From Halorubrum rutilum (GTDB lineage: Archaea; Halobacteriota; Halobacteria; Halobacteriales; Haloferacaceae): 64,000 nt of DNA. Positions 14,690 to 53,118 of the stretch are shown piece after piece (position 1 is the stretch's first letter; every line of letters begins with the position of its first letter). The position numbers and the translations under genes are program-made. Location of the stretch: the NCBI RefSeq assembly GCF_024494565.1, contig NZ_JANHDN010000001.1, forward strand, positions 372,001 to 436,000, given 5' to 3'. The notes under the pieces were generated by a model. The model had not been told where the DNA came from, did not search any database, and saw nothing but the letters and a program-made list of their open reading frames with translations.

Positions 14690-15100
14690 ATGACAGCCGA
14701 TGACACCGACGACGAGACGACGACGAGCGACCGCGGCGCCCCCTCGCGCCTCGGGCGCGTCCTGCTCGGCGTCGGCCTCGCGGCGCAGGCCTCCGAGGAC
14801 TTCCGCGAGATGGACGAGACGATCGAGTACGCGGAGTCGGCGGGCGTCCCCGCCCCCGACCTCGCGGCCCCGTTCGCCTCCGGGATGATGCTGGTCTCCG
14901 GGATCGGGATCGCGCTGTGGCGGGCGCCTCGAATCACGACCGGCGCGGCCGTGACGTTCCTCACCGTCGTGACCGCGACGATGCACGACTTTTGGAACGC
15001 CGACGAGGACGATAAGAGCGGCGAGCGGCTCGCCTTCTTCGGGAACCTCGCGATGCTGGGCGGGGCGCTGGTGTTTCTGCGCGAGGCGTATAAGAGGTGA
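14690..15100 (+). CDS. DoxX-like small membrane protein
   Basis: 136 aa from ATG 14690. A TTTATG run near 14661 is about 30 nt before it, fitting a leaderless start. An acidic N terminus of about 20 residues is followed by four hydrophobic segments with LGRVLLGVGLAAQASEDF and FASGMMLVSGIGIALWRAP, the DoxX/DoxD arrangement. ATMHDFWN is the conserved block. Such proteins are membrane components of redox or stress pathways with loosely defined function. Confidence 0.65.
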   Translation: MTADDTDDETTTSDRGAPSRLGRVLLGVGLAAQASEDFREMDETIEYAESAGVPAPDLAAPFASGMMLVSGIGIALWRAPRITTGAAVTFLTVVTATMHDFWNADEDDKSGERLAFFGNLAMLGGALVFLREAYKR

Positions 15101-15171
15101 ACGCCGGCGTGGAGTAGGGATCCGAGCGTTCGGCCGCTTGTTTAGGAATAGTCTCTGCCGGAACGGCTCAG

Positions 15172-15524
15172 AACACCGCCAAAGCCCCAGCCGCTCGGCC
15201 GTACGCCTCGTCAGTGAACACCGCCAAAGCCTCAGCCGCTTGGCCGTACGCCTCGTCAGTGAACACCGCCAAAGCCCCAGCCGCGAGGGCTCGGTGCGCT
15301 CGCTGCGCGCTTCGGTCGCTCACTCCGTTCGCTCCCTCAGTGCTTGCGTCGCGCGCCGTCGCCCTCGCGGCTGCCCCTTTGAGTCCCATCCCGACCGCAC
15401 AGCGACCGCACCTCACGCCTCCCCAGCCTCGTTAGTCGCCTCCGCTTCGCTCCGGCGACTAACTCCCTCGCACGCGCTCCTTCGCGGCCGCCGGGGGCGG
15501 CCGCTCGGAGGCGCGCGCCGCCGC
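15172..15524 (+). repeat. interspersed element, copy A (353 bp)
   Basis: The longest of four related copies in the window. It begins with 45-bp direct repeats (15172-15216 and 15217-15261, then a third start at 15262) whose shared head is AACACCGCCAAAGCCCCAGC. Next comes a pyrimidine-rich variable arm, then the core GCCCCTTTGAGTCCCA and CTCACGCCTCCCCAGCCTCG. It ends with a hairpin (15484-15504, GCGGCC arms) and GGCGCGCGCC. It lies 72 nt after the stop of the DoxX-like gene and just before the convergent stop of the CBS-domain gene. Confidence 0.85.
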
Positions 15525-15529
15525 ATCTG

Positions 15530-16615
15530 TTACAGTTCGTCGGCGTCCAGCGGGTCTTCCAGCTGTCCCATCACCGCCTCCATGGCGTCGGTCGCGGTGA
15601 GCAGCCCGACGATCTCGCCGTCCTCGACGACCATGGCGAGCTCCTGTGACTCGGCCTGGAACCGGTCGTAGGCGTCGCTGACGCTCGCGTCCGCCGCGAC
15701 CGTCATCGGCGGCGCCGCGATGTCCGCGAAGGTCACGTCGCCCGCGCGGAGCTCGTCGAACCGGCTCACGATCGAGGGGGCGTACACGATCCCCTCGAAG
15801 TCGGTCGGGTCGTCGCCGACGAGCGGGAAGCGGGTGTGGGGCGTGTCGCGGATCCGGTCGAGGTTCTCCTCGACGGACGCGTCGGTCGTCAGCGAGACGA
15901 CGTCGCCGGGAGGCGTCATCACGTCCGCGACCGTGACCCTGTCGACGTCGAGCGCGCTGAGGACCTCCTCCCGGCGCTCCTCGGGGAGCTCTACGTCCTC
16001 CATCATCGAGCCGAGCCGGTTCCGGAGCTCCGCGCGCGTCTCCAACACCTCGCTTTCGGCCTCGGTCCACGAGCCGGTCATCTCGACGCCGAACAGCCCC
16101 AGGGTGGCCTTCGCGACCCAGTCGCCGACCTTGATCAGCGGCGAGATGAGCCACGCGAACCAGTACAGCGGCCGGGACCCGTAGTTGGCGACCTGCTTCG
16201 AGCGCTCGACGCCGAGGTACGTCGGCGTCTGCTCGCCGTGCGTGAGGTGGACCATGTTGATGAGGAAGAAGCCGAGCAGCGAGCCGGCGCCGGCGGACGC
16301 GAGCGCCGTGTTCTCGAACAGCGGGGCGAACAGCGCCGCGAGCCCCGGCTCGGCGACGATACCGAGCGCGATTGAGGTCCCGGAGATCCACACCTGACAG
16401 GTCGTCAGGTAGAACTCCAGGTCGTCGGTCATCCCCCAGGCGCGGCGCAGTCCGGGGGTGTCCATCTCCGATTCGGGGTACTGACGCAGGCGCGTCAGGC
16501 CGAACTCGATCGCCACGAAGTACGCGTTGATCAGGATGAGGAGGACGCCCGCCGCCACGCGGAGGACGACCTCCGTCGGCGGCATGGCGGTCGCGAGCGG
16601 GATCATCGTTCCCAC
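15530..16615 (-). CDS. CNNM/CorC-type transporter with CBS pair
   Basis: 361 aa. The N-terminal DUF21/CNNM membrane domain (about residues 10-190) has four hydrophobic segments, and the loop HGEQTPTYLG stands where GExxPK is usual. Two CBS motifs follow (about 215-345: VTVADVMTPPGDVV, and MTVAADASVSDAYD with a LLTATDAMEAVMG ending). Relatives move Mg2+ or Co2+, or regulate transport. It ends close to repeat copy A. A shorter start at Met 4 or Met 11 is possible. Confidence 0.8.
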   Translation of the reverse strand: MGTMIPLATAMPPTEVVLRVAAGVLLILINAYFVAIEFGLTRLRQYPESEMDTPGLRRAWGMTDDLEFYLTTCQVWISGTSIALGIVAEPGLAALFAPLFENTALASAGAGSLLGFFLINMVHLTHGEQTPTYLGVERSKQVANYGSRPLYWFAWLISPLIKVGDWVAKATLGLFGVEMTGSWTEAESEVLETRAELRNRLGSMMEDVELPEERREEVLSALDVDRVTVADVMTPPGDVVSLTTDASVEENLDRIRDTPHTRFPLVGDDPTDFEGIVYAPSIVSRFDELRAGDVTFADIAAPPMTVAADASVSDAYDRFQAESQELAMVVEDGEIVGLLTATDAMEAVMGQLEDPLDADEL

Positions 16616-32930: not shown

Positions 32931-33120
32931 GTGAACACCGCCAAAGCCCCCGCCTCGCCGGCTGCCCCTTTGAGTCCCACCCGACCGCAACCGCACAGCG
33001 CCTCACGCCTCCCCAGCCTCGCGGTTCGCTCGGGGTTCCCTCCGGTCGCCCCTCACTCACCGCATCCCTCGCGCGTGCTGGCTCGCGGCCTGTCGGCCGC
33101 TCGCAGGCACGCGCCACCGC
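32931..33120 (+). repeat. interspersed element, copy B (190 bp, shortened)
   Basis: The copy has a single head unit (GTGAACACCGCCAAAGCCCC), then directly the core GCCCCTTTGAGTCCCACC and CTCACGCCTCCCCAGCCTCG, and the terminal hairpin 33085-33100 (GCGGCC-TGTC-GGCCGC) and CACGCGCCACCGC. The variable arm of copies A, C and D is missing. It lies 76 nt after the CPBP gene stop, in the same orientation. Confidence 0.85.
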
Positions 33121-36289: not shown

Positions 36290-36796
36290 CGAGGTGAGGT
36301 CGGCGGTCCGCGTGCTAAGGGGTTACGGAGCGGCTGTACTCGGGCGGCCGGCCGACGCGGATTATTTCAACAACTGCGGTGGCGCGCGCCTGCGAGCGGC
36401 CGCCGAGGGCGGCCGCGAGGAGCGCCGCGCGAGGGAGCCCGTGGCCGCCATCGGCGGCCACGGCGAGGCTGGGGAGGCGTGAGGTTGCGGTTGCTGTGCG
36501 GTGGGACTCAAAGGGGTAGCCGCGAGGGCGAAGCACGCCACAGCAAGCACCGCAGCGAGCGGTAGCGAGCGAGGAGCGCAGCAAGGCGCGCGAGCCGTCG
36601 CGGCTGGGGCTTTGGGGGTGTTCTCTGTCACAGCGACTTCAACAGAGTATGGCCGAGCGGCTGGCGCTTTGGAGGTGTTCACCGGTGACCCATCAGCAAC
36701 CATTTATAAACAAGCGGTTGGGGGTGTCGCGATCTTCCCCGCCGATCGACCGCCAGAAACGACGTAAAACCCGAAACCGACCGTTGACCAGTACGT
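36290..36796. other. 506-bp intergenic region holding repeat copy C
   Basis: Besides copy C (36376-36682) it has an AT-richer section at 36683-36730 with TTTATAAACAAG, and the region just after the PAN stop. No gene was seen apart from open frames that read through the repeat. Confidence 0.6.
36376..36682 (-). repeat. interspersed element, copy C (307 bp, minus strand)
   Basis: Read on the minus strand it begins GTGAACACCTCCAAAGCGCC and repeats a second head unit (AACACCCCCAAAGCCCCAGC). The variable arm, core (CCTTTGAGTCCCAC) and CTCACGCCTCCCCAGCCTCG follow. It ends in the hairpin 36396-36416 (GCGGCC arms) and GGCGCGCGCCACCGC. It lies 115 nt after the PAN stop, in PAN's orientation. Confidence 0.85.
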
Positions 36797-43347: not shown

Positions 43348-43891
43348 GTCGGGGTTACCGCGAACGTGCTTCGAATCGTGGCCGTTCATTTATGAATCGC
43401 TGCTGACGCGGTGACTGACCTCGAAGCCCCAGCCGCTCGGTGATACGTGTTTAGCTACTTCACCGCGAACACCTCCAAAGCCCCAGCCGCGACGACTCGC
43501 GCGGCTCGGTGCGCTCCGCGCTCGTTCGCTTCGCTCACTCGCTGCGATGCTTCCGTCGCCGTGCTTCGTCCTCGCGACTGCCCCTTTGAGTCCCGCCCGC
43601 ACCGCACGGCGACCGCACCTCACGCCTCCCCAGCCTCGCCGCGGCCGCCATCGGCGGCCGCGGGCTCCCTCGCGCGTGCGGTTCGCGGCCTGCCGGCCGC
43701 TCACCGGCACGCGCCACCGCGTTCGTTTAAATACGAAGTCGAGTGAATCTCTCTAATTTATATCCCATGTCGCCGGCGGCGGTTCGGGCCTCCATTTCGC
43801 TCGTATCTCGCGCGTGCGGCCCGTATCACGGTTCTGAGAGGGGATGCCGTGACCGTCCCGCTTTTGGTCGTGGGGCGGGGACGGTTACCAC
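43348..43891. other. 543-bp intergenic region holding repeat copy D
   Basis: The region contains copy D (43411-43720), then a short AT-richer part near 43725-43765 (CTCTAATTTATATCCCATG), which could act as a promoter element. No further gene was seen before CofH. Confidence 0.6.
43411..43720 (+). repeat. interspersed element, copy D (about 310 bp)
   Basis: A partial head unit (TCGAAGCCCCAGCCGCTCGG) is followed by the full unit GCGAACACCTCCAAAGCCCC, a variable arm, the core CCCCTTTGAGTCCC and CTCACGCCTCCCCAGCCTCG. There are two GC hairpins, ending with 43685-43700 (GCGGCC-TGCC-GGCCGC) and GCACGCGCCACCGC. It lies 64 nt after the regulator stop, in its orientation. Confidence 0.85.
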
Positions 43892-51111: not shown

Positions 51112-52153
51112 ACTTGCTCTCGTAGCCGCGCGGGGTGATCATCCGGCCGTCCCAGACGTACGTCTCCTCGTTGCCGACGAGCAGCGTCGTCGTCATGTCG
51201 ATCAGGTCGGTCTCGCCGAGCGACTCCAGCTCGCCGAGCTCGACGATCTCGACGCGCTCGTCGTCGCGCCCGGCGCCGTGGACGACGCCGACGGGCGTGT
51301 CAGCGGGGCGGTGTTCGAGGAGGATCTCGCAGGCCGTCTCGAAGTTCTCGCGGCGCTTCCGGCTCCACGGGTTGTAGATCGCGATCGTGAACCCCTCGGC
51401 CGCGACCGCGTTGAGCCGCGACTCGATCTCGTCCATCGGCGTGAGGTGGTCCGACAGCGAGATCGACACCGAGTCGTTGACGAGCGGCGCGCCGACGCGG
51501 GCCGCGCAGGACTGCGCGGCCGGGACGCCGGGGACGACCTCGAAGTCGACCGCCGACGCCGTCGCGCCCTTCGACTCGACGATCTCCAGCGCGAGCCCGC
51601 CGAGCGCGTAGACGTTCGGGTCGCCGGAGCCGACGATGGCGACGTCGTTGCCCGCGAGCGCGCGGTCGACCGCCTCCTCGGTCCGCGAGACCTCGCCGCA
51701 CATCGGCGTGTCGTACAGCTCGTCGGCCGCCTCGGTGATCTCGTCCGGGATCAGCTCCATGTACGTCGTGTAGCCGACGATGTGGTCCGCCTCCAGCAGC
51801 CTCGCCCGGGCGCGCCCCGTCATCCCCTCGGGCTGGCCGGGACCGAGCCCGACGGCGACCAGCCGCCCGGGGTCGGCGTCGAAGTCGTCGGCCGTCGACC
51901 CGACCGTCTCCTCGGTCGCCGCCGACTTCGAGGCGCCGCACGAGGAGCCGGAGCCGGCCGCGTCGCCGGACCCGCTCGCGCCGCAGGCCGACGACGACCC
52001 GCCCGTCGCCTCCGTCGTCGCGCCGCCGTCCGTCGCCGCGTCGGCGTCGGTCGCCGCGCCGCCGTCCGCGGCCGCGTCGGCGTCGGCGTCGGCACCGCTA
52101 CCGCCGCAGTTCGCGCTCGATTCGTCCGTCGTGCCGCAGGTGGTGTCGCTCAT
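51101..52153 (-). CDS. cbiH: precorrin-3B C17-methyltransferase (CbiH), copy 2, with four-Cys N-terminal tail
   Basis: 350 aa from ATG 52153. The enzyme part starts near residue 93 (VAVGLGPGQPEGMTGRARAR); GYTTYMELIP, VAIVGSGDPNVYALGG and VVPGVPAAQSCAARVGAPLV are CbiH/CobJ blocks. It methylates C17 and contracts the ring to form cobalt-factor IV. The first 85 residues are a low-complexity tail with Cys6, Cys16, Cys57 and Cys72, each followed by Gly, which may bind metal. A related copy is 2 nt upstream. Confidence 0.88.
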   Translation of the reverse strand: MSDTTCGTTDESSANCGGSGADADADAAADGGAATDADAATDGGATTEATGGSSSACGASGSGDAAGSGSSCGASKSAATEETVGSTADDFDADPGRLVAVGLGPGQPEGMTGRARARLLEADHIVGYTTYMELIPDEITEAADELYDTPMCGEVSRTEEAVDRALAGNDVAIVGSGDPNVYALGGLALEIVESKGATASAVDFEVVPGVPAAQSCAARVGAPLVNDSVSISLSDHLTPMDEIESRLNAVAAEGFTIAIYNPWSRKRRENFETACEILLEHRPADTPVGVVHGAGRDDERVEIVELGELESLGETDLIDMTTTLLVGNEETYVWDGRMITPRGYESKYDY

Positions 52154-52155
52154 TG

Positions 52156-53118
52156 TCAGAAGTCGTCGACGTCTCGCCCGCCACGCGGGGTGACGAGGAA
52201 CCGGTCGTAGTCGTTCTCCCAGACCTCGGTCTCGTGGGTGCCGACGATCAGGGACGTGCCCATGCCGCCGACCTCGTCGTCGTGGGCGGTCGCCTCGCCC
52301 AGCGTCGTCAGCGTGTACGTCTCGTCGTCGAGGTTGCGCCCGGCCTCGCCGCGGCCGGCGTCGTTGACGATCGCCACCGGGGCGTCGTCGGTGCGGTGCT
52401 CGCGGAGGACCTCGATCGCGCGCTCGTAGTCGCGCCAGCAGTTGTAGAGGACGATCGAGAAGTCCGCGACCGCCGCGGCGCGGAGCTTCTCCGCGATCTC
52501 CTCCCAGCCGCGCCACTTGTCGGACAGCGAGATCGTACAGAAGTCGTTCGAGAGCGGCGCGCCGACCATCGCGGCGCCGCCGAGCGCGGCCGTCACGCCG
52601 GGCACGATCTCGATCGGGACGTCGTCGGCGCCGTCCTCGTCGGCCATCAGGTAGACGAGGTCGGACTTGCCGTAGACGTTGGGGTCGCCGCCGGAGACGT
52701 GCGCCACGTCCTGTCCGGCGCGGACGCGCGCGAACGCCTCGCGGGCGAGCTCGATCTGCTGGCCCATCGACGAGCGCACGATCTCGACGGTCTCGCCGTC
52801 GGGGTGGGTGCCGACGTTGCCGGGCGTCCAGTCGGCGTCGACGGTGCCGTCGGCCGCGCTCCCGGACGAATCCGCCGCAGCACCGCCGTCGGTCGCGGCG
52901 GCGTCCTCGGTCCGGGACTCGGGCGGGATCGTGCCGTCCCGACGCAGGAACTCTTGGTAGAGGTTCGACGCGATGACGCAGTCGGCGTGGCGGATCACGT
53001 CGCGGGCCCGCTGGGTCATCGCGTGCGGGAGCCCCGGACCGATGCCGACGACGTACAGCGTCCCCATCTCGTCGGGCGCGCCGTCCGCGCCGCCGGGCGC
53101 CGAGCCGTTCCCGGTCAT
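52156..53118 (-). CDS. cbiH: precorrin-3B C17-methyltransferase (CbiH), copy 1
   Basis: 320 aa. [74 protein letters not shown] and [12 protein letters not shown] match CbiH. An acidic insert (about residues 68-95) is unlike bacterial relatives. Two CbiH genes in one operon may share methylation and ring contraction. The gap to cbiG is 28 nt. Confidence 0.88.

Follow-up and report, generated by a model that had tools for sequence, protein, structure and literature searches.

What is the repeat that occurs four times in the 64,000 nucleotides of Halorubrum rutilum DNA analysed here (the window)? A sequence-only reading had described four interspersed copies with a shared order of blocks, and had proposed a MITE-like element, a structured 3' RNA or a DNA-architecture site. 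We compared the four copies with each other, with two related genomes (G127 and G153) and with wider sets of haloarchaeal genomes.

Anatomy of the repeat

All four copies were present at the places claimed, the coordinates being good to a few bases, and the block order was identical in all of them. Two outcomes had been named in advance as fatal to the claim, namely copies in no other genome and no common block order, and neither held when checked. The features of the window are as follows.

15171..15524, plus strand: copy 1, complete; both cores exact, also found by repeat search
15171, 15216 and 15261, plus strand: the three heads (GAACACC) of copy 1
15270-15274, plus strand: left side of helix P1 in copy 1; CCC loop at 15275-15277, right side of P1 at 15377-15381
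15374-15387, plus strand: core of copy 1; second core 15412-15431, tail end 15524
32933..33120, plus strand: copy 2, with hairpin I reduced to a few base pairs
32965-32978, plus strand: core of copy 2; second core 33002-33021, tail end 33120
36376..36710, minus strand: copy 3, both cores exact
36710-36703, minus strand: TATA-like box of copy 3; heads at 36680 and 36623
36516-36503, minus strand: core of copy 3; second core 36483-36464, tail end 36376
43389..43733, plus strand: copy 4, both cores exact
43389-43395, plus strand: TATA-like box of copy 4; degenerate head near 43418, head at 43467
43581-43594, plus strand: core of copy 4; second core 43619-43638, tail end 43720, second TATA-like box 43726-43733

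The core CCCCTTTGAGTCCC and the second core CTCACGCCTCCCCAGCCTCG are letter-perfect in all four copies. Each gave four matches in the window with 2 or 3 mismatches tolerated, and none of 100 shuffled windows reached four. The head motif matched seven times against 0.03 expected, being repeated within copies: copy 1 has three heads, and copies 3 and 4 have two each, of which the earlier one in copy 4 is degenerate. A clear TATA-like box precedes copies 3 and 4, whereas in copies 1 and 2 it is weak or has been lost. In the repeat search of the window, copies 1 and 4 shared a 91-base match of 86% identity. Copy 1 lies between two convergent genes at 14690-15100 (plus) and 15530-16606 (minus), as called by a codon-usage caller made for this analysis, which is not a curated annotation. 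Three proteins encoded in the window had 94, 99 and 98% identity to those of a relative (G001). Apart from the repeat, 95-base stretches at 51449-51543 and 52519-52613 were 75% alike; they lie within neighbouring minus-strand genes and are probably paralogues.

The anatomy was taken from 148 distinct Halorubrum copies, with the head found in 141 and the tail in 120. Reading 5' to 3', a copy consists of a TATA-like box, the head, helix P1, a CCC/CCC loop, a variable stem, AGTCCC(A/G)CCC, a linker and the second core, followed by hairpin II, CTCCCTCGC, hairpin III, the tail GCGCGCCACCGC and a second TATA-like box, mostly 6-9 bases past the tail. The head consensus is GGTGAACACC(T/G)CCAAAGCCCCAG, and one to five heads are present per copy.

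P1 is a covarying stem with three compensated forms. Among sides matching [CGT][AG]AAG and CTT[TC][GC], Halorubrum copies had CAAAG/CTTTG in 257 cases, CGAAG/CTTCG in 29 and other combinations in 7 (CGAAG/CTTTG 3, TAAAG/CTTTG 3, CAAAG/CTTCG 1), and all 37 copies from other genera had GAAAG/CTTTC. The variable stem, with the partner chosen without reference to pairing, was 0.960 Watson-Crick in 155 of 156 copies, against 73% when shuffled, the highest of 500 shuffles reaching 0.756; slid out of register, pairing was at most 0.445. An earlier set of 151 Halorubrum copies gave 1888 of 1963 Watson-Crick cells over P1 and the first eight pairs of P2, with the partner picked by pairing, so that the variable-stem test is the cleaner one. 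The cells in these counts share common ancestry, and their p-values overstate independence.

The unpaired blocks hardly vary. The CCC/CCC loop, despite being flanked by helices, is intact in 178 of 185 copies, and the tracts after it are kept in 182 (GTCCC) and 169 (A/G followed by CCC) of the same 185. Because unpaired blocks are conserved while the stem sequence is free, a folded single strand, RNA or DNA, appears to matter. Predicted RNA folds varied between the window copies: copy 1 (z -3.9) has P1, the CCC loop and P2 in its best structure, copy 2 (z -1.4) has P1 paired, copy 3 (z -1.7) has P1 and P2 paired, and copy 4 (z -3.1) lacks both in its best structure.

The pairing does not tell which strand folds. 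A.C pairs exceeded G.T pairs by 87 to 20 in the first set, which at first hinted at the G-rich strand. Leaving out pairs 3 and 11 gave 34 to 16 (p 0.015) in that set and 7 to 11 in another, and the strand claim was dropped because the sets disagree. Fold energy also favours the G-rich strand, but came without a shuffled control and was set aside as evidence. At stem pair 3 of Halorubrum copies, C.A mismatches are common and T.G is nearly absent (30 to 1); the tandem heads may act as converters of the left arm there.

Twin-hairpin inserts of 50-60 bases are nested in the hairpins of some copies (loci L003, L010, L012, L016, L022 and L245, and copies of G127/G153). They are found in another genus too, and are a second small repeat family. 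In hairpin I, 13 of 155 copies carry the spacer GATGACGA and 4 carry CTGGCAGC.

The two boxes raise the possibility that the copies are small structured RNA genes, each under an archaeal promoter of its own, in which the left box would drive a transcript from GAACACC and the C-rich bubble stem would bind a protein or RNA. In the two relatives TTATAA was found 5' of the head in 121 copies, and in 88 of these its first base lies 29 bases ahead of the G of GAACACC, which is the spacing expected for an archaeal TATA box. Of 155 copies, 120 have the left box inside a fixed interval, against 0 and 2 in neighbouring control intervals that are themselves G+C-rich. This promoter-like spacing fits an RNA gene as well, and so do covarying stems around nearly invariant unpaired motifs, although single-stranded DNA would show such helices equally. 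Against an RNA gene, a second like box, which it would not need, follows the tail in 91 of 130 copies with the tail found (control 0), no A-rich BRE-like element was seen 5' of the left box, and the one-strand test was inconsistent. Moreover, a single RNA family would hardly be expected at about one copy per 15 kb, and a search of Rfam found nothing in the window at gathering scores or, for copy 1, at E values up to 1. We regard the RNA gene as rather unlikely. The presence of the boxes showed no clear dependence on the strand of the neighbouring genes (left box 34/71 and 13/29, right box 33/56 and 19/44), so we count them as part of the element.

Spread and placement in the genomes

The strict pattern CCCCTTTGAGTCCC-N15-44-CTCACGCCTCCC occurred exactly in 47 of 170 genomes of the family, all in genus g1, i.e. 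in 47 of 52 g1 genomes and 0 of 118 from the other genera, with 1 to 84 copies per matching genome and none for reversed-pattern controls; these are undercounts, as lineages with a CTTCG core are missed. In a scan of named genomes the pattern matched at least 120 stretches, and among the 80 matches listed, 79 were Halorubrum and one an uncultured archaeon; judging from these titles, g1 would be Halorubrum. A sister form with core TTTCAGTCC was exact in 152 of 391 Halobacteria genomes and 53 of 86 genera, with up to 66 copies. A sequence like the second core, CTCCCCARCC, lay within 80 bases in 8 of 41 TTTCAGTCC cores examined. BLAST against plasmids gave seven records; the six examined were from Halobaculum, Haloarcula, Halorubrum and Halorussus, and the non-Halorubrum copies bear core TTTCAGTCC. 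In a sample of the phylum, 26 of 392 genomes had either core form, all of them within the 81 genomes that belong to the same order or are closer still, and an exact-pattern search found neither form in the 311 Halobacteriota genomes beyond the order. No copies were found in viral contigs and phage records. The family is large, old and common to much of the class Halobacteria. Among top-ranked results of the open-licence literature we found no paper naming it.

Paired copies were seen at some loci. In genus g34, inverted cores stand tail to tail, 32-34 bases apart, at five loci (L237, L238, L243, L245 and L248). At locus L233 two copies stand head to head, and at L220 a second inverted copy was seen by eye.

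With a relaxed search, G127 had 106 copies in 1.6 Mb, i.e. one per 15 kb, and G153 had 50 in 0.8 Mb. This bears out the expectation of many copies per genome; extrapolated to 3.0 Mb, it means about 200. None of the 156 copies lies inside a called gene, nor did any of the 148 in the first set. Between co-directional genes, 45 copies run along with their neighbours and 42 against them, which leaves a strand-specific structured 3' RNA of the upstream gene, as earlier proposed, without support; a bias of 32 to 16 among the first 120 copies was not repeated in this two-genome set.

The placement is more favourable to the earlier idea of a DNA-architecture site, which is possible. Copies are enriched at convergent junctions (51 of 156, against 406 of 2150 among all junctions; p 4e-5) and few at divergent ones (18 of 156; p 0.018), and their spacing is evener than that of random intergenic picks (CV 0.77 vs 0.96; 11 of 2000 simulations were as low). 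These features, together with the inherited sites described below and the even orientation, would suit a chromosome-housekeeping site like BIME, whose hairpins between convergent genes would be bound by gyrase or a nucleoid protein, or would keep transcription units apart. However, promoter avoidance alone would enrich convergent gaps, a 100-kb count test of evenness was weaker (119 of 2000), and strict copies range from 0 to 84 across species of one genus, where some zeros are perhaps due to variant cores or incomplete genomes. A housekeeping site as the whole explanation is in our opinion unlikely.

Shared sites and changing contents

Three of the window sites were traced in 30 of 52 relatives, those with loci returned. 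The core or second core was found in the orthologous region of copy 1 in 10 of 30 relatives, of copy 3 in 16 (with head- or tail-only remnants in 3 more) and of copy 4 in 21. Orientation was constant wherever a site was occupied, and the remaining relatives were empty or carried remnants.

A closer comparison was made between G127 and G153, which are 93% identical over 4 kb. Of the 106 G127 copies, 49 could be placed in the 0.8 Mb of G153, 3 with flanks apart were set aside, and 39 of the 46 comparable ones have a site common to both species, 36 in the same orientation and 3 flipped. In the reverse comparison 49 of 50 G153 copies were placed, 5 set aside, and 41 of 44 shared. Five of ten apparently absent sites were aligned: one held a variant that the search had missed, two were deletion remnants, and two were absences with unrelated sequence. 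None of these five cases gave a recent insertion, cleanly resolved to the base, opposite an empty site. Copies reduced to head or tail only were also found.

The sites are shared, and the sequences in them are not correspondingly alike. Flank identity was 0.776 for orthologues (n=18) and 0.461 for paralogues, whereas stem arms gave 0.848 (n=29) against 0.842 and the linker 0.759 (n=26) against 0.743. Orthologous hairpins were slightly closer than paralogous ones (hairpin I loop 0.678 vs 0.620, hairpin II 0.631 vs 0.580, hairpin III 0.747 vs 0.668). At shared sites, 46 of 348 stem pairs had switched to another Watson-Crick pair and 18 had otherwise changed, counted in 29 of 36 copy pairs with at least 9 of 12 pairs formed in both species, a filter that holds the 18 down.

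One explanation is that the contents stay put and the hairpins evolve fast in place, their arms kept complementary by intrahairpin template switching. Such copying could yield the paired changes, even as filtered, and the slightly closer orthologous hairpins agree with it; yet it should close the CCC/CCC bubble, which is kept, the unpaired linker has turned over too, though it is simple in sequence, and whole-element flips are unaccounted for, so we find evolution in place very unlikely.

The three flips differ in their surroundings. At G127 787542, outer inverted repeats CGGGAGTGAGTGTAG / CTACACTCACTCCCG are present in both species, and in the G153 counterpart (L255-L374) the outermost flanks have the same order with the inside reversed; this segment is possibly invertible. 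At the second flip outer inverted repeats occur in the G153 copy only, and at the third there are none.

Across genera, 20 flanking genes had a homologue in G127, and for 7 of them that homologue also lies beside a copy, against 0 of 8 neighbouring genes and a background of 201 of 1422. Shared sites between genera are suggestive only, as the seven represent just four different genes.

The kind of element

The ends of the copies give a mixed answer to the earlier statement that terminal inverted repeats are lacking: it holds for most copies, in that 15 of the 156 in the two relatives lie between outer inverted repeats and the other 141 lack these particular repeats. The statement that there is no target duplication stood, with a longest match between left and right flank of 6.13 against 5.86 in shuffled sequence (n=112), and a duplication at the two TATA-like boxes was tested and not seen. 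A search of 2.4 Mb for a longer, autonomous element bounded by the outer inverted repeats found none; there, 33 of 35 matches to longer end models sit at copies; a wider 14-base end model matched 107 and 41 times away from copies, which we took as chance, no control being run. With outer repeats this rare, end matches almost all at copies and no duplication, the family does not belong with MITEs. Among the earlier proposals, transposase-free mobile DNA has the most support.

Candidate movers were also considered. TnpA (PF01797) was present in 41 of 52 genomes and missing from 11, including one (G106) with 57 strict copies; it is not required, and IS200/TnpA does not fit the copy number. By eye, no transposase was seen among flanking proteins in the 14 largest clusters. 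Among 30 TnpB loci, 4 had head and core, 1 heads only, 2 a core-like sequence only and 23 nothing, with about 6 expected from the copy density of G127/G153. When 26 TnpB flanks, their transposon ends not defined one by one, were compared with copies by BLAST, one contained a neighbouring copy and 10 others had matches of 15-53 bases, 82 in all; of 26 control pieces, 8 had matches, 23 in all. Most of the best matches fall in the loop of hairpin I, which is simple in sequence. IS605 ends are thus not supported as the source: the conserved blocks were not seen there, and short simple-loop matches are somewhat above controls.

Among known systems, PATEs of Haloquadratum walsbyi come close. According to PMC3119063, they are heterogeneous, too short for a transposase, mostly without inverted termini or target duplication, and leave core-deleted remnants. 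The same paper describes near-terminal palindromes, repeats switched or reversed at identical positions ('SwitchRepeats') and small repeats nested in palindromes. The present family also has near-terminal palindromes, hairpin I near the head and hairpin III near the tail. It differs from PATEs in that TnpB loci do not as a rule carry its head, core, second core and tail, one core is conserved class-wide, TATA-like boxes stand at both ends, and a covarying stem surrounds a nearly invariant unpaired bubble. The family works like PATEs but is not filed as one, the tie of PATEs to IS605 ends not being established here. PMC10544981 describes a transcribed PATE in a Halorubrum virus. The twin-hairpin inserts sit in palindromes as SMR-A of Haloquadratum do (PMC3119063), but have half the stated length of about 110.

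The bacterial REP/BIME sequences are likewise short, extragenic, palindromic and of high copy number, as given in PMC2817692 and PMC3733652, and the inverted pairs of genus g34 resemble them. The main text of RepRanger (PMC12306157) contains no word that begins with 'halo'. The present repeat is a composite of three hairpins, 190-350 bases long, and unlike REP needs no tyrosine transposase (Y1), as the 11 genomes without PF01797 indicate. REP palindromes have a conserved sequence with a short tag, whereas here the stem sequence is free and the unpaired blocks are conserved. Integron attC sites have conserved end boxes, an unpaired spacer, free stem sequence and exchange at fixed sites; all four are paralleled here, by analogy only.

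Exchange, inversion, nesting and deletion, with no duplication, are the behaviour of mobile or recombining DNA. Our best reading, with about even chances of being right, is that these are transposase-free dispersed repeats of haloarchaea, of the general kind of PATEs and REP/BIME, recognised as a folded single strand and now mostly resident. The folded strand, made of P1, the CCC/CCC bubble and P2, would be the target of a recombinase, a transposase or a repair process, and recognition of this fold could leave the stem sequence free while constraining the bubble and its flanks. Copies might swap at existing sites through recombination between the conserved end blocks, and such swapping would be more frequent than entry into new sites. 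The stability of the sites is odd for active mobile DNA, and we count it against this reading. An improbable but more far-reaching version is a class-wide haloarchaeal cassette system of about 200 self-promoted hairpin units per genome at fixed intergenic sites. An undescribed recombinase would exchange or invert these units as folded single strands, and every unit would yield a structured RNA as well.

The repeat family is an abundant non-coding feature of Halorubrum, common to much of the class Halobacteria, and is relevant to the annotation and assembly of haloarchaeal genomes. A fixed site with changing contents and a nearly invariant bubble offers a direct handle on the putative enzyme or binding protein.
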